DNA of 64,000 bases from Deltaproteobacteria bacterium (lineage in GTDB: Bacteria; Desulfobacterota; Deferrimicrobia; Deferrimicrobiales; Deferrimicrobiaceae), in NCBI GenBank assembly GCA_021815305.1, contig JAKAHC010000001.1:248001-312000 (forward strand), given 5' to 3'. Positions 7,201-26,006 of this stretch are shown here, one piece after another; positions within the stretch are counted from its first letter, which is position 1; the number at the start of each line of letters is the position of its first letter. The notes under the pieces were generated by a model that was not told the origin of the DNA, did not search any database, and saw nothing but the letters and a program-made list of their open reading frames with translations. Both the position numbers and the translations under genes were made by a program.

Positions 7201-7654
7201 CCGTACGCGCCGCACGAGGAGCCGGCTTGTCCGGTCCCAGCCATGCGACGGCGAGGGGCGGGACCACCGGAACCTCCGGAGACCAGCCGCTTTCCGCCGT
7301 GTGACCGAGGGGGTCCCGGACGGAGACGCGGACGCTGTACGTACCGGCGCGGGGAGGGGTCCAGTCCCACGTCGGGGAAGGGCCTTTCTGTTCCACCGTT
7401 TCTTCGGACCCCTTCCGGGCGCGGAACTCGTACGCGGCGCCTCCGGCGACGCCCGTGGTCACCGCCGTCCATCGGGCGATGCCGCGCCCCGCGACCAGCG
7501 GCGACGCCTTCTCTTCCGGACCCGCCAGCCGCACGGACAGCTCCGCGCGAGGATGATGAGGAGGCGCCTCCGCGACCCGTGTCGACGCACAGCCGGCGAG
7601 GAGCAATGCGGCAACAGCGGCCCTGAGAAGATTATTGTCCGAAGAGCTTGTCAA
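4202..7654 (-). CDS. Giant lipoprotein: eight Ig-like repeats plus two CsgG/GNA1162-like modules
   Basis: The 1150-residue product begins at TTG inside the 3' end of the upstream lipoprotein gene (23-bp overlap). Residues 10-22 form a lipoprotein signal with lipobox LLAGC (Cys22). Residues about 37-790 hold eight tandem repeats of about 94 residues, each with the landmarks PQAA, IRWT, GG(I/V)G, YEF, GPSP.W.W.P, YRVKV.VRD..GN and SGWS.EY; these read as beta-sandwich (Ig/PKD-like) domains. The last 360 residues contain two alpha/beta modules (FPMENLSGAAAP..., then VLPFYNDSTRKHAGE...) of the CsgG/FlgO/GNA1162 kind, similar in layout to the neighbouring small lipoprotein. Probably an outer-membrane-anchored periplasmic or surface scaffold. 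No exact family is recognised. Confidence 0.8.
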   Translation of the reverse strand: MTSSSDNNLLRAAVAALLLAGCASTRVAEAPPHHPRAELSVRLAGPEEKASPLVAGRGIARWTAVTTGVAGGAAYEFRARKGSEETVEQKGPSPTWDWTPPRAGTYSVRVSVRDPLGHTAESGWSPEVPVVPPLAVAWLGPDKPAPRAARTAIRWTVSATGGIAPLSYEFRILSEGKEEPFPKGPSPVLEWKPAAAGKYRVKAVVTDARGNAADSGWSQGYEISAPLSLESLRPDRTGPQAAGTPIRWTVSVSGGVGGRTFEFRTVRRGADTVDTLEQMGPSPEWVWTPSTADVYRVKVFVRDESGAVVAAEWPRDYPVVPPPVMAALRPDTPPPQAAESAPIRWTAAAKGGVGPLRYRFLTEKAGKERVEQEETSPVWEWRPVEPGVYRVKVVAIDGLCNMADGGWSPEYEIAPALRLTPPAPSMPAPQAAGTVAIRWSVSASGGIGPRTYAFHLVKGTGDAVVQIGPSPEWEWTPSEAGRYVIRVTVQDARGNTADSGRSPEYEIAPPLSLASLSPDRPSPQAAMTGTIRWTVRAAGGVGERTYEFWRTDGEKETGEQKGLSNTWAWNPEESGKYRVRVVVRDALGNRADGGWSGVYEVTPPLRIASLRADKSPPQAAGTTPVRWTATATGGVGERSYEFRVSGPGGERAAQTGPSPAWDWTPEAPGRYRVKVIVRDIRGNAADSGWSRDFEMTAPPVVLSLLPDREAPQRAVSATILWKASAAGGIGALSYEFRTKKGAEETVRQKGPSAAWVWQPQEPGAYAVKVIIRDSLGNASDSGWSPEYGIEKELGTDSLIAVFPMENLSGAAAPMRRIRKDFTERLRATGLRILPEEEFERFMERHRVRYTGGLSRELGSTLRRETGTSAVLVSSLDLYAEPDPPKIACTARLVSTGPTPAIRWMDSVDMAGNDSPGILGIGLVHSPGILRDRAVRRITESLSGYLSGRSGQGKGTEVSRSGRFLPRGYFLSRRFQEVPGRTLRVSVLPFYNDSTRKHAGEIVRLHFLRWLAAEENLVVIDPGEVRIAILTSRTIMPGGVSLPQADLLREMLETDLLFSGSVKDYQDATGPTGTPVVNFSGLAVDAHERKLVWSSISYNRGNDGVFFFDWGRLHTAHALASEMCRKVIGNLFRTPGKQETLPGGPTTLSGR

Positions 7655-8207
7655 GAAGGTCGTTCACCGCTTTCTCTGTAACGATATTCATCGGTTCCCC
7701 GCCCCCTCCGAAGAGGCGATCCGACGAGGTGACCCCGCCTTGCGTGGAGGAAGCCGACCAGACGACCCGTCCCGTCTGCCCTTCGATCATCTGGAGACTT
7801 ACGGAAACGAGGTTCGAGGCCGTCGTCCCGGACCGCACTTCCCCGTATTCCCGGACCGTTCCGGTGATGACCGCGTCCACTTTCACGATGTCCGCGAACT
7901 TCTTGATCTCCTCGGTGGTCGGCGCCGTCGGGTTCGCGATCCCCACGCGGGAGATGCCCCTCGCCACTTCCCCCGGAGGGACCGCATAGACGCCGTGCGT
8001 GGCGAGAAGGAGCGTCATGAAGACGTCCCGGACCCGGTCGGCCGCGTTCGTGTCCCGCGAAAGGTTGACGAAAGGCATCACCGCAACGTTCTGGAGCTGC
8101 CCGAAATCCATGTTCGGGTCGCGGAACGTGCCCTGCACGCTGTTGCGCATGGTGCCGCACCCTGCCGCCGCAAGGAAAAGCAAAAGGACGATCCCGAGTT
8201 TTCTCAT
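7632..8207 (-). CDS. CsgG/LpoB-like outer-membrane lipoprotein
   Basis: About 191 residues from ATG at 8207; an upstream in-frame TTG at 8225 would add six residues. The N-terminus MRKLGIVLLLFLAAAGC is a lipoprotein signal with lipobox AAGC. The mature part has the FVNLSRD...DRVRDVFMTLL start, an INxVxGTVxEYG-like segment (VDAVITGTVREYGEV) and a GRVVWSASSTQGG strand, which are features of the CsgG/LpoB/GNA1162 fold. CsgG is the curli export pore; others of this fold are periplasmic regulators. Here it sits between an outer-membrane barrel and the giant repeat lipoprotein, whose start lies inside this gene, so the two are translationally linked. Pore formation is not evident from this short protein. 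Confidence 0.75.
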   Translation of the reverse strand: MRKLGIVLLLFLAAAGCGTMRNSVQGTFRDPNMDFGQLQNVAVMPFVNLSRDTNAADRVRDVFMTLLLATHGVYAVPPGEVARGISRVGIANPTAPTTEEIKKFADIVKVDAVITGTVREYGEVRSGTTASNLVSVSLQMIEGQTGRVVWSASSTQGGVTSSDRLFGGGGEPMNIVTEKAVNDLLDKLFGQ

Positions 8208-8264
8208 CGAATTCCCCGTCCGCAACGGAATGTTCCCATGGTTTCCCCTCCCGCCCGAGGCGAA

Positions 8265-10490
8265 TCAGAACGCGATCCGAAGGTTCGCGCTCGCGACCTC
8301 GTTCCTCGTGTTTCCCGCCAGGGAGTCCGCCTTGAGATCCTGGTACGTCAGGTCCAGGTACGATCCTCTGGCGATGTTCCACCGCGCGCTCGGCGTGATC
8401 GTCCGCGTCCTTTCGTTGTCCTCCGTCCGGATGGTCTCATTGTAGTTGAAATTGAAATGGAGTGTCCCGTCCGGGAAAGGGGACCAGTTGAGCGCATAGT
8501 TGAAGCTGTCGACGTTCGGCTGCCCCGTCTTCCTCTCGATGTGGTATGCGCCGAACAGATACACCGACGGAAGCGGGTTTACGGTGACGGATATGTCCCC
8601 GGTGCGGGTGGTGTCGGTAGTCTCCCCGGGCTGGTCGCCCCCGGAGATCCGGCTGGTCACCCCCGAATAGGAAACATTGATCGTGGTCGTCGTGTGGGGG
8701 ACCAGCGTGAGGCCCGCGCTGATCTGGGTCCCGTCCGTTTTCCTTCCCGATTCCGCCTTCTGGTAGCTCTTTCCCACTCCCAAATTCACGTCCACGCCCT
8801 GGTACAGCTGGGCGGTGTTGAACAGCAGCGCGGAGTAAGTGTCGTTCGTGGCGTCCTCGATCCGCTCGTTCCTCCCGCTGAAAACCAGCGAGCTGCGAAG
8901 GGTGTCCAGGGGGGTCGCCGCGAGCGAGGCGGTGTAAACGTACGCAACGCGCCGCCCCTGCGGCTGGCGGCCATCCTCCCGGGCGACCCGGGCGGAAGCG
9001 GAAAAGATCCTGCCGAAGTTCGAGGCGGCGGAGACGCCGTTGGACAGGTCGTACCGGACCGGCGAGGTCCCGCTCTTCGCCAGGAAGTAGGACAGTTCGT
9101 AATACACGGGGTATGCTTCGAGGAGCTTCACGCGGGTTCCAAGGGTGTACCTGTGGCTGGTGGCCGAGGTCTTCCCGGCAACGTCGGCCGCGGGACGCCT
9201 CAGGAGGGCCTGGAGCTCCGTCACCCGGATGTCGGAGGGATCCGGGAAATCCGGAGGGACCGGCACGGTGCGGGGAAGGGGCCTTGTGACCGCCTTGACG
9301 TACCGGGCCGTCACGTCGTTGAACCGGATTTCGAACCGCTGCTGGAACGGGCCGAACGCCGCGGCGGGAACCGTCTGCCTCAGGGTCCAGGTCCGGTTGT
9401 CCGTGCTTGTGTAGATTTCCCAGGAGTAGGCGGCGGCGATGCCGGAAGGAAGGTCCCGGTTCACCCACACGAGCAGCGCGTTCACCGTGGTGTCGATCCC
9501 GAAATCCAGTCCCATGTTCCGGGTGGAGGTGTCGAAGGGGGATGCCGGGATCCCGATGTTGATCTGGTCGATCGGGGTGAACAGCCCGTCGATCAACCGG
9601 GGGGCGGGGGCAAGCGTCACGTCGGCCGGCGTGTCGGTGACTCCCGAGAGGGCCGCCAGGGGGGAGACGGGAAAACCGATCTCGCCGGCTCCGGAAGCGG
9701 TGATATCCACCAACTGGTAGACCACGGTGTAATCCGAGGAAAAATCCATCCGGTTCCGGAAGAACCGGTCTCCGTAGTTCACCCTGCCTTCATGGGTGTA
9801 CGTCTGCGTTTCGTTGCGCTCCAGCCGGTTTCTCTGGTCCTCGTACGTCCCGGTGTATTTCAGGAACAGGGGCTGCGCGGGACGGTACTCGGAGACAAGT
9901 TGATACCGGTCGTCCGTGGCGTCCCGGAACCGCCGGGCCTTGTCATAGGTTTCCGTGCGAAAGTACCGGAACATCGTCCGGGGAAAGCCGTCCGGATACC
10001 ACCCCAGCGTTCCGAAATAGTTCTCCTGGACGTCGGTGACCGGAGGGGCGCCCGTGGAGGCGACCTTCTGTTCGTTCCGGTCGTACCCCCCTTCCGCCTG
10101 GTAGAGGGGACTCTTCAGTCGCAGGTTGAGGAACGGCCGGATCCGGTTGGTCGCGGTGCCGATGTCCTGTGTCGCGGTTTCCAGTTTCGCGAGGTCCCTC
10201 TCGAACAACCCTCCCGTGGAAACCGAGAGGTTCGGGTAGAGGCGCCTGTCGAGGTTCAGGCTGTACCGCTGCGTAAAGGAATCGGTTGCCGTTTTCGTGG
10301 ACACGCCCCCGACGGGATCCTCCGTGTAGGAACGCAACCGTCCGTAAGTATATTCCACATACCCGGAGATCCCTTCGGCGCGAGCTGTCCCCCCGGAAAA
10401 AGAGGACAGGGTCGTCATCGCGAAAAACCCCAGCGCGGCCAGCGCGAAGAGGCGCCATGCGGCATGTCGTATGGCATTCCCCTTTCCCAC
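8265..10490 (-). CDS. Outer-membrane beta-barrel protein of the cytochrome locus
   Basis: The 741-residue protein starts at GTG (MGKGNAIRHAAWRLF), has a signal peptide cut near GTARAEG and shows alternating hydrophobic/polar strands with many aromatic girdle residues. It ends NEVASANLRIAF with the terminal Phe typical of BAM substrates. A central insertion (about residues 300-420) contains a discoidin/F5-8-like stretch (MGLDFGIDTTVNALLVWVN ... EIRFNDVTARYVKAV). Size and setting resemble porin-like barrels that accompany multihaem cytochromes in outer-membrane conduits, but there is no haem motif and I cannot assign it to the MtrB/OmbB families. An alternative role is export of the cytochromes. 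It follows the YVTN gene by 8 bp. Confidence 0.78.
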   Translation of the reverse strand: MGKGNAIRHAAWRLFALAALGFFAMTTLSSFSGGTARAEGISGYVEYTYGRLRSYTEDPVGGVSTKTATDSFTQRYSLNLDRRLYPNLSVSTGGLFERDLAKLETATQDIGTATNRIRPFLNLRLKSPLYQAEGGYDRNEQKVASTGAPPVTDVQENYFGTLGWYPDGFPRTMFRYFRTETYDKARRFRDATDDRYQLVSEYRPAQPLFLKYTGTYEDQRNRLERNETQTYTHEGRVNYGDRFFRNRMDFSSDYTVVYQLVDITASGAGEIGFPVSPLAALSGVTDTPADVTLAPAPRLIDGLFTPIDQINIGIPASPFDTSTRNMGLDFGIDTTVNALLVWVNRDLPSGIAAAYSWEIYTSTDNRTWTLRQTVPAAAFGPFQQRFEIRFNDVTARYVKAVTRPLPRTVPVPPDFPDPSDIRVTELQALLRRPAADVAGKTSATSHRYTLGTRVKLLEAYPVYYELSYFLAKSGTSPVRYDLSNGVSAASNFGRIFSASARVAREDGRQPQGRRVAYVYTASLAATPLDTLRSSLVFSGRNERIEDATNDTYSALLFNTAQLYQGVDVNLGVGKSYQKAESGRKTDGTQISAGLTLVPHTTTTINVSYSGVTSRISGGDQPGETTDTTRTGDISVTVNPLPSVYLFGAYHIERKTGQPNVDSFNYALNWSPFPDGTLHFNFNYNETIRTEDNERTRTITPSARWNIARGSYLDLTYQDLKADSLAGNTRNEVASANLRIAF

Positions 10491-10498
10491 TCCACCGG

Positions 10499-11878
10499 TT
10501 ACCTCTCTCCCATCAGGGTCACGCCGTACGGATCGTCCCCCACGTCCACCCGAGCCTCCGTTCTCCTGCTGACGATCCCGACCACGCGGATCTCTCCCGG
10601 AGCCGGCTGGACCAGCAGGAGGTTGTTCCCCTCCCCGTCGATCGCGATGTAGGAAACATCGTCACCCGTGGCGAGAAAATCGACGGGCATCGCGGCGATC
10701 GGGTCGAAGACCTCGACCTGGCCGGTTCGCCTGCGGGCGAGATAGATCCGGCCGGTCCGCGAATCCACCTTCAGCGCGATCGTCCCGGTCCCCACGTAGA
10801 TCCGCCGCACCACGCGCAAGGTGACCGTGTCGAGGACGGAAAGGTACGGGGAAGACCGGTGGGCGACATACAACAAGCCGCCGTCCCGGCTGAAATCGCC
10901 CCGGAAAGGCTCCGCCTCGGTGGGCACCGTCGCTGCGACCCGCCTGCCGGGGAGATCGAGGACGGATACGGTGTCGGATGACGCATTGAATACGTACGCC
11001 CTCCTCCCGGTACGGTCGACGAGGATCGACTGCGGGCCGTTCCCCACGGGGATGCGCGCATCCTCGACCAGCAATTCGGGGTCGATCACGCTCACGGTGT
11101 TCGATCCCGAGTTGACCGACAGGAGGGTCCTCCCGTCCGGGGTGAGCGCCAGTTCCACCGGGGCGTCCCCCGGGGCCAGGCGAAGGCGGTCGGTGACCTC
11201 TCCCGAGAGGATGTCGATGCGCTCCACGCCATCGCCGCCCTGCAGGGCCACGTATACCTTTCGCCGCAACGATGCGAGGGCCATCCCCGACGGCGCCGCC
11301 CCCGTGGGGACCACCCCCGCCACGCGGCCCGTGAGCTTGTCGAAGACCGTCACCGTGTTCCCCGTCCGGCTGGTCGCGAAGGCATTCAGGCCGACCGCAA
11401 GTTTCCCGGGAAACGCGGCGTGGAACGACGGGAGAAAGCGCACTCCTCCCGGCAGCGATTCCCGGTACAGGAGGGAGAGGGACAGGACGGTCCCGCTGCG
11501 ACGGCTCACGTGGAACGGGAATTCGAGCCAGGAAGGCTCCTCCGGCAGGAGGAGCGCCGATTCCCCGTCTTCTCCCTTGAGGAAGGCGTCACGTACCCGG
11601 AACGAGAGGCCCGAATACCGGCCCGGAGGGAGCGCTCCGAACGCAAGGAACCGTTCCCTGCCCGCCTCCCGGAGGTTCACTTTCCGGAGTCGGACCGCGA
11701 GGGGGAACAGGGCGCCGTCTTCCCGGCGAGCGGACAAGGATTCGATCCGGTACGACAGGCGCGCCGCTTCCTGGGGCAGGGGGGCGAGATAGACGTAAAG
11801 CCCCCCTTCGGATTCGAGGACGGGACGGAGCATTCCCTGCCGCGCCTGGCATCCGGCAAGCAGCAGGAACATTCCCAA
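10499..11878 (-). CDS. YVTN/lactonase-type beta-propeller lipoprotein
   Basis: The C-terminal two thirds contain repeated propeller blades with YVTN-like hallmarks (VYVALQGGDGVERIDI, TLLSVNSGSNTVSVIDP, AYVFNASSDTVSVLDL, LYVAHRSSPYLSVLD, IYLARRRTGQVEVFDP). The N-terminal part has an unassigned beta-rich domain after a lipobox (LLLAGC). The start is unclear: the frame is open up to a GTG at 12010, but an intrinsic-terminator hairpin for the upstream cytochrome lies at 11937-11965. Between it and the lipobox only TTG (11878) and ATG (11872) are available, which leaves an unusually short signal sequence. Likely a surface or periplasmic lipoprotein in the electron-transfer locus. Confidence 0.75.
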   Translation of the reverse strand: MGMFLLLAGCQARQGMLRPVLESEGGLYVYLAPLPQEAARLSYRIESLSARREDGALFPLAVRLRKVNLREAGRERFLAFGALPPGRYSGLSFRVRDAFLKGEDGESALLLPEEPSWLEFPFHVSRRSGTVLSLSLLYRESLPGGVRFLPSFHAAFPGKLAVGLNAFATSRTGNTVTVFDKLTGRVAGVVPTGAAPSGMALASLRRKVYVALQGGDGVERIDILSGEVTDRLRLAPGDAPVELALTPDGRTLLSVNSGSNTVSVIDPELLVEDARIPVGNGPQSILVDRTGRRAYVFNASSDTVSVLDLPGRRVAATVPTEAEPFRGDFSRDGGLLYVAHRSSPYLSVLDTVTLRVVRRIYVGTGTIALKVDSRTGRIYLARRRTGQVEVFDPIAAMPVDFLATGDDVSYIAIDGEGNNLLLVQPAPGEIRVVGIVSRRTEARVDVGDDPYGVTLMGER

Positions 11879-11936
11879 AACAGGCGCGAGGCTATGCCAC
11901 CGGGGCGACCTGGGGGTGTACCCTCCGCTTCGAAAG

Positions 11937-11965
11937 AAAGGGGCCGGCGGAAAGCCGGCCCCTTT
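11937..11965 (-). terminator. Intrinsic terminator after the OmcS-like gene
   Basis: A perfect 12-bp stem (AAAGGGGCCGGC paired with GCCGGCCCCTTT) with a 5-nt loop is followed on the minus strand by CTTTCG. It lies 53 nt after the stop codon of the OmcS-like cytochrome and before the lipobox of the YVTN gene, so it probably ends or attenuates the cytochrome transcript. Confidence 0.7.
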
Positions 11966-12017
11966 CCGTGCTGTATGCCGCCGGGGGATCACACTGCCCC
12001 CGGCACGCACGCCACGA

Positions 12018-13298
12018 TCAATCCTGGGCGTGGCACTTGTTGCAGAGCACTCTCTGGTACGCGCCGAACACGGAAACCGGGCGGTCGTAATATGCCGCCT
12101 GGTTCTCCGCCGCGAGGCGGCCGCGGGCGAACTGCGGGGAACCCGGAGTCGTGTCCGTTCCCGGCCAAGCGGCGGCGCCGGTGTTGTCCACGTAGGAGAT
12201 GAACTCGCCTTCCATCTGCCAGCGCAGCATCTCCGGGAACCCGGAAGCGTGCGCCCGGTGGCAGGAGAGGCACATCACCTGGTCGCTCGTTCCCGGACCG
12301 GCAAGAGCGGTCCCGTTGTTCTTGGCGTGGGACTTGAGGACCGTGTAATCCCCGGTATTCTCCGCGAACGGCACCAGGGAGAGGAACGGGCCCTGGCCGG
12401 CGGCGAACGTGCCGGTCATGATGCCCGAACTGACGTACTGGCTGTACCGCGTCGAGATACTGGAGCCGAGGCCCTGATCGACCGGGTGGACGTAGTTCCC
12501 CGTGCTGTGCATCGACCCGTGGCAGGTGCCGCACCACTGCCCCCACGGTTCCTGGCCGCCGGTGGTGGATACGCCGTAGGCGACCCGGGTCTGCTGGAGC
12601 GACTCGGAACGGTTATATGTGCTTGGCGCGACCGCCACGGGGACGCCGCCGAAGGTCACGCCGCCCTTGGCGTAGCCGGCGCCCGCCAGGAGGCGATATA
12701 CGCCGACCGCCTGGCCGACGGCGGGGGTGGCGCTGGTGTCGTACGAGCCGGAGCCGACGATGGGGGCGCCGGACGTCGCGACCGACCCGGTGCTCAAGCG
12801 GCGGTATTTGCCGTGGGGATCGTGGCAGGAGTTGCACGCCAGCTGCGAGGACGGGAAGGTCCCGCCGGGGGACGAGGCGAAGTCGGGGTCCACGCCGTAG
12901 CCGTAGTCGGCGGAGATGATGTTGTGGCCGTGGGAAGAACCGGTCTCGGTGTTTACGGTGCCGCGCACCGTGAACGTGTAGGTCTTCTTCAGCCAGCCGA
13001 AGTCGCCGCCCGGGGTCCGTTGCAGCGGCGCCGTGCCCGCGGGCATGTTGGCGTCCGCCGTCGCGATGTGGTAGCTGGTCGGCCCGGTGTCTCCGGGGTG
13101 CAGGTGGCAGTTGAGACACGTGGAGCTCTGGTCCGTGCCCAGGAGCAGGAAGCTGCCGCCTGCTTTCGGTGTGTGCATGCTGTGGCAGCCGCCGCACTCG
13201 GCGACGCCGCCCGAATGGAACGCGAACGCCGTGGTCCCCAGCCCGGCGGCGAGCAGGGCGGCGACCAGGATGACGAACGAAACCTTTACCGCTTTCAT
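12018..13298 (-). CDS. omcS: OmcS-family hexahaem nanowire cytochrome (copy 1)
   Basis: The 426-residue product starts at ATG 13298 behind AAGGAGGAGAA, with a signal peptide ending TAFAF. The mature protein begins FHSGGVAECGGCHSMHT and has six CXXCH motifs (CGGCH, CLNCH, CNSCH, CGTCH, CLSCH, CNKCH). Landmarks shared with Geobacter sulfurreducens OmcS, from memory, include YHIATADANMPAGTAPLQ, TPGGDFGWLKK, GHNI, SCHDPHGKYRR, AVAPSTYNR, TRVAYG, YTVLKSHAK, CLSCHRAHASGF and the terminal CNKCHAQD; length also matches (OmcS about 432). OmcS polymerises into extracellular filaments that carry electrons to minerals. Eleven further histidines are available as distal haem ligands. It is followed by a strong terminator and preceded by an NHL-repeat gene. 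Confidence 0.92.
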   Translation of the reverse strand: MKAVKVSFVILVAALLAAGLGTTAFAFHSGGVAECGGCHSMHTPKAGGSFLLLGTDQSSTCLNCHLHPGDTGPTSYHIATADANMPAGTAPLQRTPGGDFGWLKKTYTFTVRGTVNTETGSSHGHNIISADYGYGVDPDFASSPGGTFPSSQLACNSCHDPHGKYRRLSTGSVATSGAPIVGSGSYDTSATPAVGQAVGVYRLLAGAGYAKGGVTFGGVPVAVAPSTYNRSESLQQTRVAYGVSTTGGQEPWGQWCGTCHGSMHSTGNYVHPVDQGLGSSISTRYSQYVSSGIMTGTFAAGQGPFLSLVPFAENTGDYTVLKSHAKNNGTALAGPGTSDQVMCLSCHRAHASGFPEMLRWQMEGEFISYVDNTGAAAWPGTDTTPGSPQFARGRLAAENQAAYYDRPVSVFGAYQRVLCNKCHAQD

Positions 13299-13525
13299 TT
13301 CTCCTCCTTGTTTTCTCCGGCGGCCCGGCCATCCCCGGCTTCCCGTGGACCCGTCGGCTTTGTGCCCCCGCCTCGCGACGGGTTTACCCTTGTCGGAGGA
13401 GCCTGATGGGTTGAACGCCTGCAATCGCCAGACAGCTTTCCGTATCCTCCATCGATCCGTCGATTCCCGAACCCGTCCTACCACCTCCTCTCCCGAAGGA
13501 ATTTCCCGCCGCCGATCGCATGCCG

Positions 13526-14488
13526 TCAGTTGGAGGTCAGGGAAAACACGCTGATCCCCCGCCTCTGGAGCTGGGTCACGTAGAGACGCCCGACGTTCCC
13601 CAACGCAAGGTCCGTCGGACCCGCGAGACTCCCGGGTTTGCCGTCCCGGAACCCGAACTGGGTAAGGAAAGTAAAATCCTTGTCGAACACCATCACGACG
13701 CTCTTCAACTTGTCGGACACGAGGATGTTGCCGGCCGAATCGACCGCGATGCCGGACACCACGCCGAAAAATCCGGGCGCGCCGCCCGGTTTCCCGAAAG
13801 ACGCCACTTTTCCGTTTGGCGAGATCCTGTACACCTTGAAGAAGGCGGGGACCGTGAGGAAGATATCCCCCGCTTCGTCCAGGGTGATCCCGAACAACTC
13901 GGTGGAAGGGCGGTCCTTCTCGGGGATGCCGACGATGTCGGCGAAATCGTAAGCGCGGACGAACGCCCCTCGCTTGTCGGTCACAACCGCCTTCATCCGG
14001 GTCGTGCTGACGAGGAAAAAGCGATCGTTCCGGTAGATCAGGGTATTGGGCTCGAAATCCGCATACCCCTCGGGGAGGTTCGAGACCGCGATCTTTTCCC
14101 TGGGTTCCCCGCGATAGTTGCACCGGCAGAGGTAGTAGGACAAGATCCCCGGCACCCTGAGGTCGTACGAGAGCGTGTAGATGTCTCCCGCTTCGTCGAC
14201 CGCCATCCCGTAGATCGATCCGATCTCCTGGTCGTCGCCGAACCGGTAGACCTCCATGCCCGTCCGGTTGAAGATCCGGACGGAGTCCCCGTCGGCGACG
14301 TACACCTCGTCGTGCAGCCTGTCGGCATAGAGACGCACCTGCCCGTAACGGACCGTCCCGGCGAAATCCGAGAGGTTGTACAGGTAGTTCGCCCCGAATT
14401 CCGCGAATGCGGGCTGCCCCCCCATGACAGGGGGAAGGATGCCTCCCAGGAAAAGGAGGAAAAGATATCTATTGCGAAGCCCTTCCAT
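13526..14488 (-). CDS. Exported NHL-repeat six-bladed beta-propeller protein
   Basis: The 320-residue protein has a signal peptide (residues 1-29, ending QPAFA) followed by propeller blades of NHL/6-bladed type: LYADRLHDEVYVADGDSVRIFN, YGMAVDEAGDIYTLSYD, FGITLDEAGDIFLTVPA, SGIAVDSAGNILVSDKL, TDLALGNVGRLYVTQL. No catalytic residue set is evident. It lies immediately upstream (227-bp gap) of the OmcS-like gene on the same strand; NHL genes also occur beside omcS in Geobacter, as far as I recall, so a role in nanowire assembly or anchoring is plausible. A near-perfect sigma54 promoter motif ends about 12 nt before the start codon, which would give an almost leaderless mRNA; no good Shine-Dalgarno is seen. 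Confidence 0.82.
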   Translation of the reverse strand: MEGLRNRYLFLLFLGGILPPVMGGQPAFAEFGANYLYNLSDFAGTVRYGQVRLYADRLHDEVYVADGDSVRIFNRTGMEVYRFGDDQEIGSIYGMAVDEAGDIYTLSYDLRVPGILSYYLCRCNYRGEPREKIAVSNLPEGYADFEPNTLIYRNDRFFLVSTTRMKAVVTDKRGAFVRAYDFADIVGIPEKDRPSTELFGITLDEAGDIFLTVPAFFKVYRISPNGKVASFGKPGGAPGFFGVVSGIAVDSAGNILVSDKLKSVVMVFDKDFTFLTQFGFRDGKPGSLAGPTDLALGNVGRLYVTQLQRRGISVFSLTSN

Positions 14489-14797
14489 GTACCGGAGAGC
14501 AGCAATTCCGGTGCCACGGCGGCTCTATGCAACTTTACTAAGTAAAAACAATATATTACAGTTTTAACTCTCCTTCACCACACAATCACTACGGTGGAAT
14601 CCCCACCCTGTTCCGTGATATCCCCAGATCCTGCAAAACACCTGGGGACGTGGCGGGAATGTGGGGAAATTGCCGGAGAGGTGGGGAATAGCCCAAGTTT
14701 CCCAATGTAAGAATCGTATTTCCCTCTCCGTTCCTTATCCACAACGTGCCGATATGTGGAATAAAATCCGGTAAACGGAAATTATTTCTCGTAAGGC
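14489..14797. other. Divergent intergenic control region, 309 bp
   Basis: No gene is seen here. The region is clearly lower in GC than its surroundings and contains an AT-rich run near 14525-14570, several copies of a TGGGGAA-like word (around 14658, 14670-14690) with an inverted TTTCCCA near 14697-14703, and candidate sigma54 motifs at both ends. It separates the minus-strand NHL/OmcS genes from the plus-strand REC-PilZ/OmcS genes and so is the likely shared control region of the two cytochrome units. Confidence 0.6.
14501..14516 (-). promoter_or_regulatory. Sigma54 (-24/-12) promoter motif upstream of the NHL gene
   Basis: On the minus strand the sequence reads TGGCAC-CGGAA-TTGCT. The GG and GC dinucleotides are separated by exactly 10 nt, matching the sigma54 consensus TGGCAC-N5-TTGCW. 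The predicted start is near 14490, only about 2 nt before the NHL start codon, which is a reason for caution. An NtrC-family activator is encoded nearby at 16.9 kb. Confidence 0.45.
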
Positions 14798-14809
14798 ATG
14801 AGAATTGCT
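14794..14809 (+). promoter_or_regulatory. Weaker sigma54-like motif at the REC-PilZ gene
   Basis: The plus strand reads AGGCAT-GAGAA-TTGCT, with correct GG-N10-GC spacing and two mismatches to the sigma54 consensus. It overlaps the first possible ATG (14798) of the response regulator; use of this promoter would imply translation from the second ATG at 14822. Confidence 0.25.
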
Positions 14810-14821
14810 TACATTTTGGAC

Positions 14822-15508
14822 ATGCCGGACATCGTCGCAAAACGGGTCCTGGTCGTCGATGACGATCCCCTGGTCTGCTGGGCGATCCACAGGGAACTCA
14901 CTGCAACCTTCGTGGAAACCCATTTCATGGGATCGGGAGGGGAGTGTCTCGACGCGGTGAGGGAGAACCGGTACGACCTGGTTTTTCTCGACATCCATCT
15001 TCCGGACGCCAACGGCATCGACCTTCTCCGGAAGATCCGCGCCCAGTCCCCGGGGACTCGGGTCGTCATCTCCAGCGCCGACGGGAGCGATGCGAACAAG
15101 GAACTCGCCCTCTCCGCCGGTGCGGTGCAGTTCATCGAAAAACCGTTCGAAATCTCCTTGATCCAACGGGTCGTCACCGGTGCGCTCTGGGATTCCCCCG
15201 GAGGCCGCGCGCATCCCCGGTACCTCTGCAACCTTCCCCTCCGCATCTCCGTTCTTTCTCACCCGCCGGAGGCGGCTCCGGCCGATCTGGACAATCTTGG
15301 GGGAACGGCGGAAGACGTGGGGAAAGAGGGCGTGCGCGTCAACACAGGATACCCTCTTCGGAAGGGACAGAGTGTCCGGTTGCGGGTTACGGACCCGCGG
15401 GATCCCTTTTCCAAATTCTTCCCCGGCGAACCGGTCGCCGAAGTTGTCTGGGTCGTCCCCGGATCGGAGTCGTCCCGGGCAGGTTTGAGGTTCCTCCCGG
15501 CAACGTGA
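14822..15508 (+). CDS. Response regulator with REC and PilZ domains
   Basis: About 228 residues from ATG 14822 (MPDIVAKRVLVVDDDP); an upstream ATG at 14798 would add eight residues. The receiver domain has the acidic pair DDD, a phospho-acceptor in LVFLDIHLP and the conserved Lys in FIEKPFE. After about residue 125 comes a PilZ-like domain: RAHPR matches the RxxxR part of the cyclic-di-GMP motif, and DVGKEG is a degenerate form of the (D/N)xSxxG part. It lacks a DNA-binding domain. It is 64 bp upstream of the second OmcS-like gene on the same strand, so it may link phosphorylation and cyclic-di-GMP to nanowire output. The partner kinase is not obvious; the nearby haem kinase is a candidate. 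Confidence 0.8.
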   Translation: MPDIVAKRVLVVDDDPLVCWAIHRELTATFVETHFMGSGGECLDAVRENRYDLVFLDIHLPDANGIDLLRKIRAQSPGTRVVISSADGSDANKELALSAGAVQFIEKPFEISLIQRVVTGALWDSPGGRAHPRYLCNLPLRISVLSHPPEAAPADLDNLGGTAEDVGKEGVRVNTGYPLRKGQSVRLRVTDPRDPFSKFFPGEPVAEVVWVVPGSESSRAGLRFLPAT

Positions 15509-15572
15509 AGTTTTCGGCTTTCCCGACCGATACCTTCCTTCAGCGAGCATTGCGGCGAGAGGGAGGGTCCTC

Positions 15573-16871
15573 TTGGAAAGCGTCCTGCGGCTTCGAACCG
15601 TTCCCTTCCTCATCGTTTCCCTCCTTTTCCTCGGTGAACCTTTCATCGTCCCGGCGACGGCGTTCCACTCGGGCGGCGTGGGCGATTGTCTCGGGTGCCA
15701 CTCCATGCACGCTCCGGCCGCAGGGACGGAGAAGCCGGCGGGCGCCCATCCCGCATCGCTCGTCGGATCGGATCCCGGTTCCACTTGCCTGTCCTGCCAC
15801 CTGAAAGCAGGGGAAACGCGTCCCTCCTCCCACCGGATCGCAACCGCCGATGCGGACATGCCCGCCGGATTGCCTCCGGCCCAGATCACGCCCGGCGGAG
15901 ATTTCGGCTGGCTGAAGAAGAGTTACCGCTGGGGGGGCGATCCGGGCGAGGCCGGAGGGAGCAGCCCCGGGGAACGGCACGGGCACAACATCGTCGCGGC
16001 GGACTACCGTTACACGGCGGACACGAAGAATTTCGCCGCCCCCGGCGGAACGTATCCCGCCGACAGGCTCAGTTGCATCAGTTGCCACGACCCCCATGGG
16101 AAGTACAGGCGTCTCGCGGGGGGAATCATCGGGACCGGTGGAGCCCCCATCCTGGGGTCGGGCTCCTACGAGGTGAGCCCCCTCCCGACCGGAACCGCCG
16201 CGGTAGGCGTATACCGGCTCCTGGGAGGGAAGGGTTACGTGACTTCCCTGTACGGCGGAGCCCCCTTTTCCGCGGATCCTCCCGCCGCCGTCTCCCCCTC
16301 GGACTTCAACCGCCCGGAGAGCGACAGCGACACGAGGGTGGCGTATGGCGCGGGAATGTCCGAGTGGTGCGCAAATTGCCACGCCGCGCTGATGGGTGAA
16401 TCAGCCGGGCGGAAAGTCCATCCCGCCGGGGCAAGCGTCAAGTTCGGCGCGGACACCGCCTCCACCTACAATGCCTACGCAGGTTCGGGGGACATGTCCG
16501 GAGGCCCGGCGACAGCGTACACCTCGCTGGTCCCCTTCGAAATCGGGACGAACGACTACTCCGTGCTGAAATCGATGGCGCGGAGCGACGGCGCGGCATC
16601 CACGGGGCCGGATGCGAACGCCAACGTGATGTGCCTGTCCTGCCATCGCGCGCACGCATCCGCATGGGACCACGCGGCGCGCTGGAACATGGAATCGGCG
16701 TTTCTCGTCTACGGCGGGAATTTCCCCGGGATCGAGGACCCTGCCGCGCCGCCCGGCATTTCCCAGGGGCGCACACGGGCGGAGACCCGCAGGGCGTTCT
16801 ATGAAAGGCCGCCGGGCCGCTTCGCGGCCTACCAGAGATCCCTCTGCAACAAGTGCCACGCCAAGGATTGA
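15573..16871 (+). CDS. omcS: OmcS-family hexahaem nanowire cytochrome (copy 2)
   Basis: The 432-residue product starts at TTG behind AGGGAGG, with a signal peptide ending PATAF. It has six CXXCH motifs (CLGCH, CLSCH, CISCH, CANCH, CLSCH, CNKCH) and the OmcS landmarks FHSGGV, ADMPAGLPPAQITPGGDFGW, GHNIVAADY, CHDPHGKYRR, AVSPSDFNRPE, TRVAYGAGMSEWCANCH, YSVLKS, CLSCHRAHAS and terminal CNKCHAKD. In the middle and C-terminal parts it resembles Geobacter OmcS more than copy 1 does. Two histidines present in copy 1 are replaced: VLKSHAK becomes VLKSMAR, and CHLHPGD becomes CHLKAGE. It lies downstream of the REC-PilZ gene and converges on the NtrC-type regulator. It could be a paralogue in the sense of OmcT. 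Confidence 0.9.
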   Translation: MESVLRLRTVPFLIVSLLFLGEPFIVPATAFHSGGVGDCLGCHSMHAPAAGTEKPAGAHPASLVGSDPGSTCLSCHLKAGETRPSSHRIATADADMPAGLPPAQITPGGDFGWLKKSYRWGGDPGEAGGSSPGERHGHNIVAADYRYTADTKNFAAPGGTYPADRLSCISCHDPHGKYRRLAGGIIGTGGAPILGSGSYEVSPLPTGTAAVGVYRLLGGKGYVTSLYGGAPFSADPPAAVSPSDFNRPESDSDTRVAYGAGMSEWCANCHAALMGESAGRKVHPAGASVKFGADTASTYNAYAGSGDMSGGPATAYTSLVPFEIGTNDYSVLKSMARSDGAASTGPDANANVMCLSCHRAHASAWDHAARWNMESAFLVYGGNFPGIEDPAAPPGISQGRTRAETRRAFYERPPGRFAAYQRSLCNKCHAKD

Positions 16872-16901: not shown

Positions 16902-18290
16902 CTACTCCAGCCCGAACTTCTTCACCTGGTACCGCAGGGAGTCGTAGGTGATCCCCAGCAGCCTGGCCGCGGCCGTCTTGTTGTTTCCGGCCTTCTCGAG
17001 CGCCTGCCGGATCAGGTTTTTCTCGATTTCCTCCAGCGAAAGCCCGACGTCGGGGATGGTAATACCAGGCGCGGCCTGCCCTGCCGGCCTGCCCCGTCCC
17101 GAGAGGATCTCCGCCGGAAGATGTTCCGGCAGAACGATCCGGTCGTTTTCCAGGACGACGATCCGCTCGACGACGTTGCGCAGTTCCCGGCAATTCCCCG
17201 GCCACCGGTAGGCGACCAGGTACTCCAGCGCCTCGGCGGAGAAATCCGTGATGCCCGGCTTGGCGTATTTCTTCGAATACTCCTCCAGAAAGTGCCTGGC
17301 CATCAGGGGAATGTCCTCTTTCCGCTCCCTCAGGGGGGGGAGGTGGACGGAAAAGGCGTTCAACCGATAGAACAGGTCCACGCGGAACTCCCCCTTCTCC
17401 ACCGCCGCCTCCAGGTCCCGGTTCGTCGTGGCGAACACCGTCGCGTCGAACGGGATGTCCTCCTTCCCGCCGATCCGCCGCACCTTTCTCTCCTCGAGCA
17501 CCCGCAGAAGCTTGGACTGCAGGTCCTGGCGCATCTCTCCGATCTCGTCGAGCAGGAGCGAGCCGCCGTACGCCTGCTCGAAGACTCCCTTCTTGTCGGT
17601 TTTCGCGTCCGTGAACGCACCCTTGTCGTGCCCGAACAGTTCGCTTTCGATGAGCTGCTCCGGCAGGGCGGCGCAGTTGATCCCGACGAACGGGGCGAAA
17701 ACGGACGGATCCTTCCGGTGCATCCGGTCGTGCATGCACCGGGCGAAGATCTCCTTTCCCGTGCCGCTCTCCCCGGTGATCAAAACGATCGGCACCTCGG
17801 CGTCCGAGAGCTTCTCGCATCGGGCCCGAAGCTTGTGTATCACGTTCGTGTTCCCGATGATCTCCCGCTGGTCCTGGGCGGGGGAAACCTTCCGCAGGTA
17901 CTCCACCTCCTCGCGCAGGTTCCGCCTTTCGACGATCTGCCCCAGGACGATTTTCACCTCGTCCAGGTTGAACGGCTTGGTCAGGTAGTCCACGGCCCCG
18001 ACCTTCATGGCCTTGACGGCGGTCTCCGCCGTGTCGTCGGAGGTAAGCATCACAACCTGTACGGATATGCCCTGCGCGACGATCTCTCCGAGGATGTCGA
18101 TGCCGCTGCGCCCGGGGAGCTTGATGTCCAGCATCACCACGTCGGGGGAGAACGAGCGGATCTTGTCGATCACGTTTTCAGGATCGGACTCGGCGCGAAC
18201 GTCGTACCCGTCCCCCCGCAACGCCCTCTCCAGCATGGAGACGATCAGTTCGTCGTCGTCGAGCAGGAAAACCTTCCCCCGGGACTTCAT
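16902..18290 (-). CDS. NtrC-family sigma54-dependent response regulator
   Basis: The 462-residue protein has the full NtrC layout. The receiver (residues 5-120) has DDD at 11-13 and phospho-acceptor Asp55 in VVMLDIKLPG. The AAA+ domain (about 140-380) has Walker A GESGTGKE, the sigma54-contacting GAFTDA loop and Walker B SLLLDEIGEM. The C-terminal Fis-type helix-turn-helix reads GNNKTAAARLLGITYDSLRYQVKKFGL. It overlaps the histidine-kinase stop codon by ATGA, so the pair is co-translated. Likely targets are sigma54 promoters in this locus, such as the motif at 14501-14516; that link is inference. Confidence 0.95.
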   Translation of the reverse strand: MKSRGKVFLLDDDELIVSMLERALRGDGYDVRAESDPENVIDKIRSFSPDVVMLDIKLPGRSGIDILGEIVAQGISVQVVMLTSDDTAETAVKAMKVGAVDYLTKPFNLDEVKIVLGQIVERRNLREEVEYLRKVSPAQDQREIIGNTNVIHKLRARCEKLSDAEVPIVLITGESGTGKEIFARCMHDRMHRKDPSVFAPFVGINCAALPEQLIESELFGHDKGAFTDAKTDKKGVFEQAYGGSLLLDEIGEMRQDLQSKLLRVLEERKVRRIGGKEDIPFDATVFATTNRDLEAAVEKGEFRVDLFYRLNAFSVHLPPLRERKEDIPLMARHFLEEYSKKYAKPGITDFSAEALEYLVAYRWPGNCRELRNVVERIVVLENDRIVLPEHLPAEILSGRGRPAGQAAPGITIPDVGLSLEEIEKNLIRQALEKAGNNKTAAARLLGITYDSLRYQVKKFGLE

Positions 18291-19735
18291 GCCGCGGGCC
18301 CGCTTTCCTCTTTCACGGGAAGCCGGATGGTGAACAGCGCGCCGCCCCCGGACCGGTTGGCGACGTGAATGGCTCCTTCGTGATGTTCGATCAACTGGCG
18401 GGAGATCGCCAGGCCCAGGCCCGTCCCCTTGGCCTTGGTCGTGAAGAACGGCTGGAACACCTTGCCGATGAGGTCCTCGCGGATGCCGCTCCCGGTGTCG
18501 GAGATCTCGATCCGGATCATCCCTTCGTCATCCAGCAAGGTCCGGATGCCCAGCTCGCCCCCCCGGGGCATCGCGTGGAGGGCATTCAGGAACAGGTTCA
18601 GGAAGACCTGCTGCAGCTGCGTGGGGTCCGCGAGGGTCGGCGGAAGGGTCTGGAAATCTTTCCGGATCACGACCTTCTCCGTCCCCCCGGGACCGATGGA
18701 GTGGTGCTTCAGGTGGAAACTGAGGGTCGTGTTCAGCAGCTGGTTCATGTTGATCGGCTCCAGCCGGGGCTTCTGGGGCCTCGCGAAATTCAGGAAGCTC
18801 TTCATCAGCCCTTCCAGGCGGGTGATTTCGTCCACCACTTTCCGCAACACCGCCTTGTCCTCGACGGTGATGTACGATTCCTCGGCCAGGACGCTCGTGG
18901 CGACCTTGATTCCCGCCATCGGATTCTTCACCTCGTGGGCAAGTCCCGCCGCCAGCTCCCCCACGGCGGCAAGCTGCTCCGCGCGCTGCATCTTGTGCAT
19001 CTGCTCCTTGAGGGACCCCGCCATCTCGTTGAAGGCGGTGCCGAGCTCGCCGAATTCATCTTTCAGCGGCGCTACGCGGTGGTCCAGATCCCCGCGCTTG
19101 AGCTTTCGGGTGGATTCCACGAGGACCTTGACGGGGCGGGTCAGCCCCATGATGAAGACGAACCCCAGCAACGCCGACAACAGGGGGCCGAGCGCCACAA
19201 GGCCGTAGAGAAAATATTTGGTGCGGGCGATTTCGTTGATCGCCTTTTGCGTGTTCACCCCGAGCCGGGAGCTCGTGATGGCGATCATGTCCTGGACCTT
19301 CGCGCTCAGCTCCTCGCCGATCCGGAAGGCGGTGTCCTCCTCGGCGGCGAGCCTCGCGGCGTTCGCCCGGAGGGTCAACACCCTGCTCAGGGCGTCCTTG
19401 TACCGCTCCGTTTCCCTCTTCAGGTCGTTCAACCGATCCGTCCCGCGCGGAGAGTGGTGGCAGTCGAAACAGGTGTCGATGATCCTCCCCATGCCCATGA
19501 CGTTCGAAACGACCGTATCGTAACTCTTCGAATATTGCGTGCCCATGAGCGTGAGGTCCGACTGCACTTTCTTGATTTGCAGCAGGTAGTGCTCCCTCAG
19601 GATCTCCACCTGGTGGAGCGTGATCAGGCGGTCGAGGTTTGCCGTGGCGGTGCGGATGGTGCGGATGACGTAGGCGCCGGCCAGGAGGAAGACGACGGAA
19701 TATGAGGTTAACGCGATGGCGATCTTGCGTTTCAT
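18287..19735 (-). CDS. Sensor histidine kinase with periplasmic c-haem motif
   Basis: The 482-residue kinase has TM1 (about residues 7-26), a periplasmic domain with a single haem-attachment motif CFDCH (89-93) followed by a second His, TM2 (about 176-197), a HAMP domain, a HisKA box LAAGLAHEVKNPMAG with phospho-acceptor His267, and a HATPase domain with DTGSGI and GTGLGLAI boxes. The CXXCH in a four-helix-like periplasmic domain suggests a covalently bound haem sensing redox state, oxygen or NO, as in other Geobacter c-type haem sensors. The start overlaps the stop of the upstream binding-protein gene, and the stop overlaps the regulator start. Confidence 0.9.
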   Translation of the reverse strand: MKRKIAIALTSYSVVFLLAGAYVIRTIRTATANLDRLITLHQVEILREHYLLQIKKVQSDLTLMGTQYSKSYDTVVSNVMGMGRIIDTCFDCHHSPRGTDRLNDLKRETERYKDALSRVLTLRANAARLAAEEDTAFRIGEELSAKVQDMIAITSSRLGVNTQKAINEIARTKYFLYGLVALGPLLSALLGFVFIMGLTRPVKVLVESTRKLKRGDLDHRVAPLKDEFGELGTAFNEMAGSLKEQMHKMQRAEQLAAVGELAAGLAHEVKNPMAGIKVATSVLAEESYITVEDKAVLRKVVDEITRLEGLMKSFLNFARPQKPRLEPINMNQLLNTTLSFHLKHHSIGPGGTEKVVIRKDFQTLPPTLADPTQLQQVFLNLFLNALHAMPRGGELGIRTLLDDEGMIRIEISDTGSGIREDLIGKVFQPFFTTKAKGTGLGLAISRQLIEHHEGAIHVANRSGGGALFTIRLPVKEESGPAA

Positions 19736-20643
19736 CAGTTGTTCATGTAATCGTAGGCGGCCAGGTCCAGGTGGATGTCTTTCGCGTACTCCACGACGGC
19801 GGCGTAATCCTTGTCCGTCGTCCCGATGAACTTCAGCGCCCCGAACCCTTTCAGCACCTTCACCCCTTCCGGGTCCAGGTGCATGTTGAGGAGCGCTTCC
19901 TTCATGCGGTCCCGCATCGACGGGTCGATGTCCCCCCGCAGGGCGAGACCGTTTTCCGGAACGTCGGGGGACCTCGTAAGGACCACCAGATCTCTCAGGA
20001 TCCGGGGGTCCTCTTTCGCAATGCGGTAATAGACCGTGTTCTTCGCCGCCCCGATGTCGGCCTTCCGGTCGAGAACGTCCCGGATCGCGCCCTCGTGCGT
20101 CCCGGTGAAATAAGTTTCCTTCAGGTATTTCCTGTAATTCGAGATCCCGTGTTTTTGGAAGTATTCCAGCGGGAGAAGGTAGCCTGCCGTCGTCGCCTTG
20201 TCCACGAAGGCGAACCGCTTCCCCCTCATGTCGCGGGCGGCCCGGATGCGGCTGTCTTTCCGGACGAAGATCATACCGTAATAGGTGGAAGTGTTATCGA
20301 GAGCCACCGGCCGCGCAAGGACCTCCACCCCCACCTTCGCATGCGCCAGGGGGTAGGTGAAGCTGCCGAAGAAGGCGCCGTCCATCCCCGATGACCGGAA
20401 ATTGTCGATGATGTTTCCGTACCGGGGAAGGACTTTCAACACGATCTTCGCGCCGGTCTTCCGGGAAAGATAATCCGCCAGGGGCTGGTACCGCTCCAGT
20501 TGCCTGAAAATGTTCCGCTCGGGGATCAGCCCGATCAGGAGCTTCTTCGCCGGCGCCGCTTTCGGGGCGGGTGGCGGCTCTTTCCGGGAACAGCCGAGAA
20601 GGAGCAGGAGACACGCAATGCCGCAGAGGATACGTTTTGCCAT
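19735..20643 (-). CDS. PhnD-family periplasmic binding lipoprotein
   Basis: 302 residues from ATG 20643. The N-terminus MAKRILCGIACLLLLLGCS is a lipoprotein signal (lipobox LLGC). The mature protein has the phosphate/phosphite/phosphonate-binding (PhnD/PtxB) pattern: IGLIPERNIFRQLERYQPLADYLSRKTG, DGAFFGSFTY, GMIFVRKDSRI, AFVDKATTAGYLLP, and EGAIRDVLDRKADIGAAKN. No transporter permease or ATPase is adjacent. Instead its stop codon overlaps the start of the haem-containing kinase, so it probably acts as the ligand-binding accessory of a three-component sensory system. Confidence 0.87.
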   Translation of the reverse strand: MAKRILCGIACLLLLLGCSRKEPPPAPKAAPAKKLLIGLIPERNIFRQLERYQPLADYLSRKTGAKIVLKVLPRYGNIIDNFRSSGMDGAFFGSFTYPLAHAKVGVEVLARPVALDNTSTYYGMIFVRKDSRIRAARDMRGKRFAFVDKATTAGYLLPLEYFQKHGISNYRKYLKETYFTGTHEGAIRDVLDRKADIGAAKNTVYYRIAKEDPRILRDLVVLTRSPDVPENGLALRGDIDPSMRDRMKEALLNMHLDPEGVKVLKGFGALKFIGTTDKDYAAVVEYAKDIHLDLAAYDYMNN

Positions 20644-25910: not shown

Positions 25911-26006
25911 TGGCGGAAGCGTGAGGGAATCGAACCCACCGGAGACGTTTCCGCCTCCCGACCGGATTTGAAGTCCGGGGGGGCCACCAGCGCCCCATCC
26001 GCTTCC
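25911..26006 (-). tRNA. selC: tRNA-Sec (anticodon UCA)
   Basis: On the minus strand a 96-nt tRNA starts GGAAGCG and ends CGCTTCC-G-CCA (CCA encoded). The anticodon stem-loop CCGGACTTCAAATCCGG gives anticodon TCA, and there is an extended variable arm before the T-arm GGGTTCGATTCCC. These are the features of SelC. No selenoprotein gene or other sel gene is recognised in the window. Confidence 0.95.

Follow-up and report, generated by a model that had tools for sequence, protein, structure and literature searches.

The window, a 64,000-nucleotide stretch of a deltaproteobacterial genome, probably encodes an osc/OmcS-type nanowire locus under layered control, together with a second candidate subunit on the opposite strand. 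Two hexahaem cytochromes of the OmcS family define it. OmcS-A (12018-13298, minus strand) begins with a signal peptide followed by FHSGGV, and OmcS-B (15573-16871, plus strand) starts at the TTG at 15573, which is preceded by GAGGGAGGG with a strong Shine-Dalgarno (SD) sequence. The 701-aa open reading frame listed for OmcS-A is over-extended; the true start is the internal ATG at 13298, preceded by AAGGAGGAG. Each protein contains six CXXCH motifs and is ∼55% identical to OmcS of Geobacter sulfurreducens. The phmmer matches to OmcS in the PDB (6EF8/6NEF; E = 1.3e-121 for OmcS-A and 4e-127 for OmcS-B) span the whole mature length of both proteins, which share the mature N-terminus FHSGGV, and together these features bear out the preliminary description of two full-length OmcS-family hexahaem proteins. 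They are the only OmcS homologues that we found in the 2.77-Mb genome. A recent duplication was rejected as the source of the pair because the two are only 48-50% identical to each other and fall in different clades. More than one OmcS-type gene per locus is known from Geobacter (omcS/omcT/oscC; PMC12977616), and pairs or more were present in many of the loci that we compared, so the pair itself is unsurprising.

The twelve haem ligands of OmcS are all histidines, and one of those on haem 505 is donated by the neighbouring subunit (Filman et al., PMC6584659). G. sulfurreducens OmcS has 11 histidines besides the six of its CXXCH motifs, and exactly six non-CXXCH histidines are common to OmcS, OmcS-A and OmcS-B: mature H2, H16, H110, H147, H257 and H335. 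Among 59 family members these are kept in 59, 56, 59, 59, 59 and 58, respectively, and the remaining five OmcS histidines are variable. The inter-subunit ligand we take to be H16, an assignment said to come from work by Wang et al. in 2019. Both window proteins retain all twelve candidate haem-ligand histidines, including the inter-subunit one that the preliminary description had singled out for checking; H16 is present in the alignments of OmcS-A and OmcS-B alike. AlphaFold (AF2) models of the single subunits, built from family alignments, reached mean pLDDT values of 70.5 and 71.0, a moderate confidence that was lowest at the N-terminus carrying H16. The sole PDB match of both models was OmcS 6EF8 (E = 6.5e-38 and 4.2e-39; TM 0.80 when normalised by query length, 0.84 when normalised by target length). 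At this moderate model confidence, OmcS-A and OmcS-B are predicted to have the OmcS fold, and their membership of the OmcS family stands on the full-length homology with six CXXCH, on the ligand set, H16 included, and on the modelled fold.

The H16 position is lost (K or A) in divergent Geobacteraceae copies at L024:3104-4345 (-), L032:2110-3345 (-) and L047:7369-8805 (+), two of which contain seven CXXCH. It is possible that these copies are non-polymerising or capping forms.

An alternative is that OmcS-A and OmcS-B act as monomeric cytochromes of the outer surface or periplasm and that the cluster builds a trans-outer-membrane conduit of the OetABI kind. In syntrophic sulfate reducers, related clusters that contain OmcS-like genes have indeed been assigned to OetABI conduits (PMC10553843), and whether cells need cytochrome filaments physiologically is under dispute (PMC11077965). 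We nevertheless consider this alternative improbable, given that retention of the inter-subunit H16 in 56 of the 59 family members is what selection for assembly would be expected to produce, and that PMC13194489 ties the osc genes to OmcS folding and secretion.

In a maximum-likelihood tree of the OmcS family (59 rows), OmcS-A belongs to a 16-row clade (support 100/98) whose other members are single-copy proteins from Acidobacteriota, Rokubacteria, and Nitrospirota-labelled and delta-labelled genomes. OmcS-B belongs to a 4-row clade (100/98) confined to the host genome's own family, and OmcS itself lies in a third, separate clade (98/88). An AU test rejects the forced grouping of OmcS-A with OmcS (p = 1.7e-18), which rules out OmcS-A as OmcS sensu stricto, that is, as the GSU2504 orthologue. 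For the whole OmcS-B clade, separate in the tree, grouping with OmcS is borderline (p = 0.044). The preliminary description had named a placement of both proteins outside the OmcS clade as grounds for giving it up and, in the strict sense, this is largely what the tree returns, firmly for OmcS-A and marginally for OmcS-B. Because the ligand set and the fold are kept, the statement that the two proteins work like OmcS appears to survive, with partial support, where the statement that they are OmcS does not.

The host lies outside Geobacterales, in line with the lineage outside classical Geobacter that had been proposed: its RpoB is ∼80% identical to that of family members and 61% identical to that of Geobacteraceae. 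The nearest relative of OmcS-A (L011) is 72% identical, and yet RpoB of the L011 genome is only 58% identical, which points to horizontal spread of the OmcS-A type; a binning error in metagenome bins would be an alternative source of this pattern. Elsewhere in the window, a tRNA-Sec gene (25915-26006, minus strand; RF01852, 74 bits) indicates that the organism probably makes selenoproteins.

OmcS-A heads a complete osc nanowire assembly operon, with equivalents of OscD through OscI, all on the minus strand. The first gene of the operon encodes an NHL beta-propeller protein (13526-14488, Pfam). The genes 3' of OmcS-A encode a YVTN/YNCE beta-propeller (OscD equivalent, 10499-12010), a 741-aa predicted outer-membrane/secretion protein (OscE equivalent, 8265-10490), a GNA1162-like lipoprotein (OscF equivalent, 7632-8225), an OscG equivalent with extra N-terminal PKD/Ig-like repeats (4202-7654), a PpiC/SurA-type prolyl isomerase (OscH equivalent, 2393-4084), and a 26-haem cytochrome with 26 CXXCH (386-2365), the equivalent of OscI (GSU2495). 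Equivalence to the named GSU/Osc genes was judged by order, domains, and haem count rather than by direct sequence comparison, with OscD to OscG assigned by position and OscH by order and domains. This succession of propeller, secretion genes, prolyl isomerase, and 26-haem cytochrome is the osc operon order, and it recurs downstream of OmcS-type genes in several groups, among them Geobacteraceae, Acidobacteriota and Rokubacteria. Of 44 loci, 28 have OscD after OmcS, and truncated contigs account for many of the others; exactly 26 CXXCH are present in every full-length OscI equivalent (12/12). We note that the OscG equivalent is 1150 aa long versus a median of ∼370 aa for the ORFs of its relatives, with many PKD/Ig-like repeats placed before the conserved part.

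In Geobacter, PMC13194489 gives OscD a role in morphology, OscE-G in secretion, and OscH in folding, and identifies OscI as GSU2495. The operon there begins with omcS, omcT and oscC and continues from OscD onward (PMC13194489, PMC12977616). An osc cluster of this kind has already been described in Geobacter and is widespread.

The Geobacter gene order raises a further reading, possible but rather unlikely in our judgment, in which only one of the two cytochromes polymerises. OmcS-A would then be an OscC-like companion, periplasmic or an adaptor, with a role in priming or anchoring the filament, and OmcS-B would be the wire, or the reverse. OmcS-A does sit directly upstream of the OscD propeller, which is the position of oscC/GSU2501 in Geobacter, and GSU2501/OscC is tabulated as periplasmic (PMC13194489) and carries no assigned function in PMC12977616. 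In addition, OmcS-B is missing several non-ligand histidines that are common to OmcS and OmcS-A. However, grouping of OmcS-A with the OscC-type clade is rejected (AU p = 5.6e-11) and that of OmcS-B is disfavoured (p = 0.011), and it is OmcS-A, not OmcS-B, whose leader contains the riboswitch characteristic of Geobacter omcS. In the Acidobacteriota loci, moreover, the OmcS-A type is the only hexahaem cytochrome beside the machinery and hence the wire, if any is made. In G. sulfurreducens only OmcS, and not its paralogues, is known as a wire, and sequence cannot separate them outside the genus (PMC12977616).

We return to the reading of OmcS-A as an osc-type wire subunit and to how its expression might be controlled. 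The preliminary description had the two cytochromes diverging from a shared 309-bp control region. The gap between the end of the NHL gene (14488) and the start of the REC-PilZ gene (14798) is exactly 309 bp, and Pfam agrees on an NHL propeller beside OmcS-A and a REC-PilZ protein beside OmcS-B. The cytochromes are, however, not directly divergent, since the NHL and REC-PilZ genes stand between them and flank the 309-bp region. Nor do they share a promoter region: a perfect sigma-54 promoter, TGGCACCGGAATTGCT (14501-14516, minus strand), faces NHL/OmcS-A only, the opposite side offers only a weak sigma-70-like site (14738-14767, plus strand), and OmcS-A is preceded, further along, by a riboswitch leader of its own. 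What is supported is the proposal of two differently controlled paralogues. Sigma-54 sites with at least 6 of the 7 variable positions occur upstream of NHL in 13 of 28 loci versus 1.1 expected, and the whole genome contains only five strict sites. The sigma-54 site lies ∼28-31 nt before the first NHL ATG (window 14488-14516, minus strand), likewise in several other loci, a spacing at which the NHL mRNA would be nearly leaderless.

Adjoining OmcS-B are the genes for a sigma-54 activator response regulator (16902-18290, minus strand; domains and a GSU2506-like position) and a sensor histidine kinase with a periplasmic CFDCHH c-haem motif (18287-19735, minus strand; domains and CXXCH). A gene for a PhnD-type periplasmic binding protein (19738-20592, minus strand) adjoins that of the kinase. 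In G. sulfurreducens a regulator and kinase, GSU2506/GSU2507, lie near omcS. All eight of the closest kinase orthologues contain CXXCH, mostly as CFDCHH, which suggests a haem-based redox sensor. From position alone, we infer that this kinase and activator act on the 14501-14516 promoter.

The intergenic leader between NHL and OmcS-A contains a GEMM-I (c-di-GMP-I class) riboswitch aptamer (13316-13398, minus strand) that scores 47.9 bits against RF01051, above the cut-off of 35. Its score for the c-di-GMP-I-GGC subtype (RF03167) is 54.0 bits, below the cut-off of 59, with relatives at 60-65. No other GEMM-I was found in the host genome. GEMM-I riboswitches also lie directly upstream of OmcS-type genes in L081, L079, L088, L011, L016, L020, L027, L021, L031 and L030, and the Acidobacteriota genomes of L021 and L031 likewise yielded a single GEMM-I, placed before the OmcS-type gene. 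In two relatives a second GEMM-I again precedes a six-CXXCH cytochrome (L114, G008:C53:59078-59158 (-), and L108, G088:C19:43315-43407 (+), the latter cytochrome with an OmcS-like N-terminus), and these cases would extend the link between riboswitch and hexahaem cytochrome.

The 5' edge of the OmcS-A aptamer, CTCCTCC (13395-13401, minus strand), overlaps the 5' strand of the riboswitch P1 helix and is the exact complement of the OmcS-A SD, GGAGGAG (13301-13307, minus strand). A compensatory change is seen in L088, L016, L020 and L027, where the SD reads GGAGGAT and its partner ATCCTCC. Over ten leaders the SD pairing totals 63 bp, compared with a mean of 36 and a maximum of 46 when the 5' strands are shuffled, and when strands are re-paired between loci, 8 of 5000 trials reach the observed helix total, a count uncorrected for the kinship of the leaders. 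The weak leaders are those of L031, which has no SD pairing, and of L011 and L021, with only 5 bp each. Among GEMM-I leaders that are not upstream of OmcS, long SD pairing occurs only for another hexahaem gene of G008 and in one G013 case, but their start codons are uncertain, and this set does not serve as a control. In the predicted unliganded fold, the OmcS-A SD is paired with the anti-SD at a probability of ∼0.97. P1 requires the anti-SD strand as well, so ligand binding is expected to release the SD, and the leader is predicted to be a translational ON switch for a cyclic dinucleotide. What appears to be new here is this anti-SD/SD complementarity with its covariation across phyla.

Terminators or anti-terminators are used by Geobacter pgcA and related GEMM-I switches (PMC6456294), which makes control through transcription termination, or an OFF switch, worth weighing for OmcS-A. 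Either seems unlikely, however: the aptamer ends ∼9 nt before the SD, which leaves no room for a terminator, a search between the aptamer and the OmcS-A SD found none, and the SD pairing covaries across loci.

As to the ligand of the predicted ON switch, cGAMP-selective GEMM-Ib riboswitches have an A at the selectivity position. The OmcS-A riboswitch has a G, which favours c-di-GMP, at this counterpart of Vc2 G20 (the position as named in PMC9262584). Hypr cGAMP synthases combine a signature Ser with GGDEF (PMC6456294). One of ∼13 GGDEF domains examined in the genome, L094 (G000:C2:112605-113075), has this signature, so cGAMP as ligand, or dual sensing, is possible. In the omcST operon of G. 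sulfurreducens, the GEMM-I riboswitch responds to cGAMP as well as to c-di-GMP (PMC6456294). By simple anchoring, the omcS riboswitch of Geobacter sp. L1geo (L027:820-905 (+)) has a C at the G20-equivalent position, where the other loci have G.

On the other side of the 309-bp region, the REC-PilZ gene (14798-15508, plus strand; Pfam) ends 64 nt upstream of OmcS-B. The two genes adjoin in 5/5 family genomes that have OmcS-B, one of them represented only by a contig-end fragment, and in G008 the REC-PilZ gene lies 3' of OmcS-B. REC-PilZ-like genes are found at the same place without OmcS-B in L016, L088 and L011, so OmcS-B probably joined a pre-existing regulatory gene. The window protein keeps the RxxxR motif of PilZ, and its D/NxSxxG motif reads DVGKEG; the motifs are canonical in L016, L088 and L011.

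Taken together, these features suggest the following sequence of events. The c-haem sensor kinase and sigma-54 activator (16902-19735) would turn on the promoter at 14501-14516, giving a transcript that encodes NHL, OmcS-A, the OscD-OscH assembly and secretion proteins, and the 26-haem cytochrome, within which the GEMM-I would gate OmcS-A translation. In the ligand-free state the 5' strand of the aptamer would pair with the SD and block the ribosome, and binding of a cyclic dinucleotide (c-di-GMP or cGAMP) would let P1 form and release the ribosome site. OmcS-A would then be exported and stacked head to tail, with its N-terminal His16 supplying the remaining ligand to a haem in the adjacent subunit. 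OmcS-B, encoded with REC-PilZ on the opposite strand, may serve as another subunit with the same fold, one that depends on the same machinery but is controlled separately. A broader generalisation, offered tentatively and unlikely to hold in full, is that, in several phyla, an SD-sequestering GEMM-I controls translation of the osc wire subunit, atop a haem-sensing sigma-54 switch, and that in the host's family a REC-PilZ-controlled second subunit leads to mixed or alternative filaments whose composition is set by the cyclic-dinucleotide level. The locus bears on what triggers the production of cytochrome filaments and on whether cells make filaments of more than one subunit. Outside Geobacter, it is a small system in which both questions could be put to the test: one subunit gene follows an RNA switch, the assembly operon is complete, and the other subunit is controlled separately. 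The covariation of the SD pairing provides a directly testable regulatory prediction spanning phyla. What the locus adds to the known osc clusters is its regulatory anatomy and the OmcS-B/REC-PilZ branch.

The window proteins resemble OmcS of G. sulfurreducens (GSU2504; PDB 6EF8, 6NEF) in their six CXXCH, six distal histidines, FHSGGV start, length, and predicted fold. They differ from it in sequence (∼55% identity), in their position firmly (OmcS-A) or marginally (OmcS-B) outside its clade, and in being known here from genes alone. The osc operon GSU2504-GSU2493 (Shen et al. 2025, via PMC13194489 and PMC12977616) shares with the window the order OmcS - OscD - E - F - G - H - 26-haem OscI, as well as an upstream sigma-54 regulator and kinase (GSU2506/GSU2507) and a GEMM-I before the OmcS gene. 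By contrast, the window has one OmcS copy in the operon, another encoded with REC-PilZ on the opposite strand, an OscG enlarged by PKD/Ig repeats, and no tandem omcT. The omcST GEMM-I of G. sulfurreducens (PMC6456294) belongs to the same RNA class and acts on the same target gene family, but it is one of 17 in that organism versus one found in the host genome, and the window switch has a predicted SD-sequestering platform and a G at the selectivity position. The OetABI/OmcS-like cassettes of syntrophic sulfate reducers (PMC10553843), set beside the window by description rather than gene by gene, share with it the placement of OmcS-like genes beside a multihaem/porin cluster.
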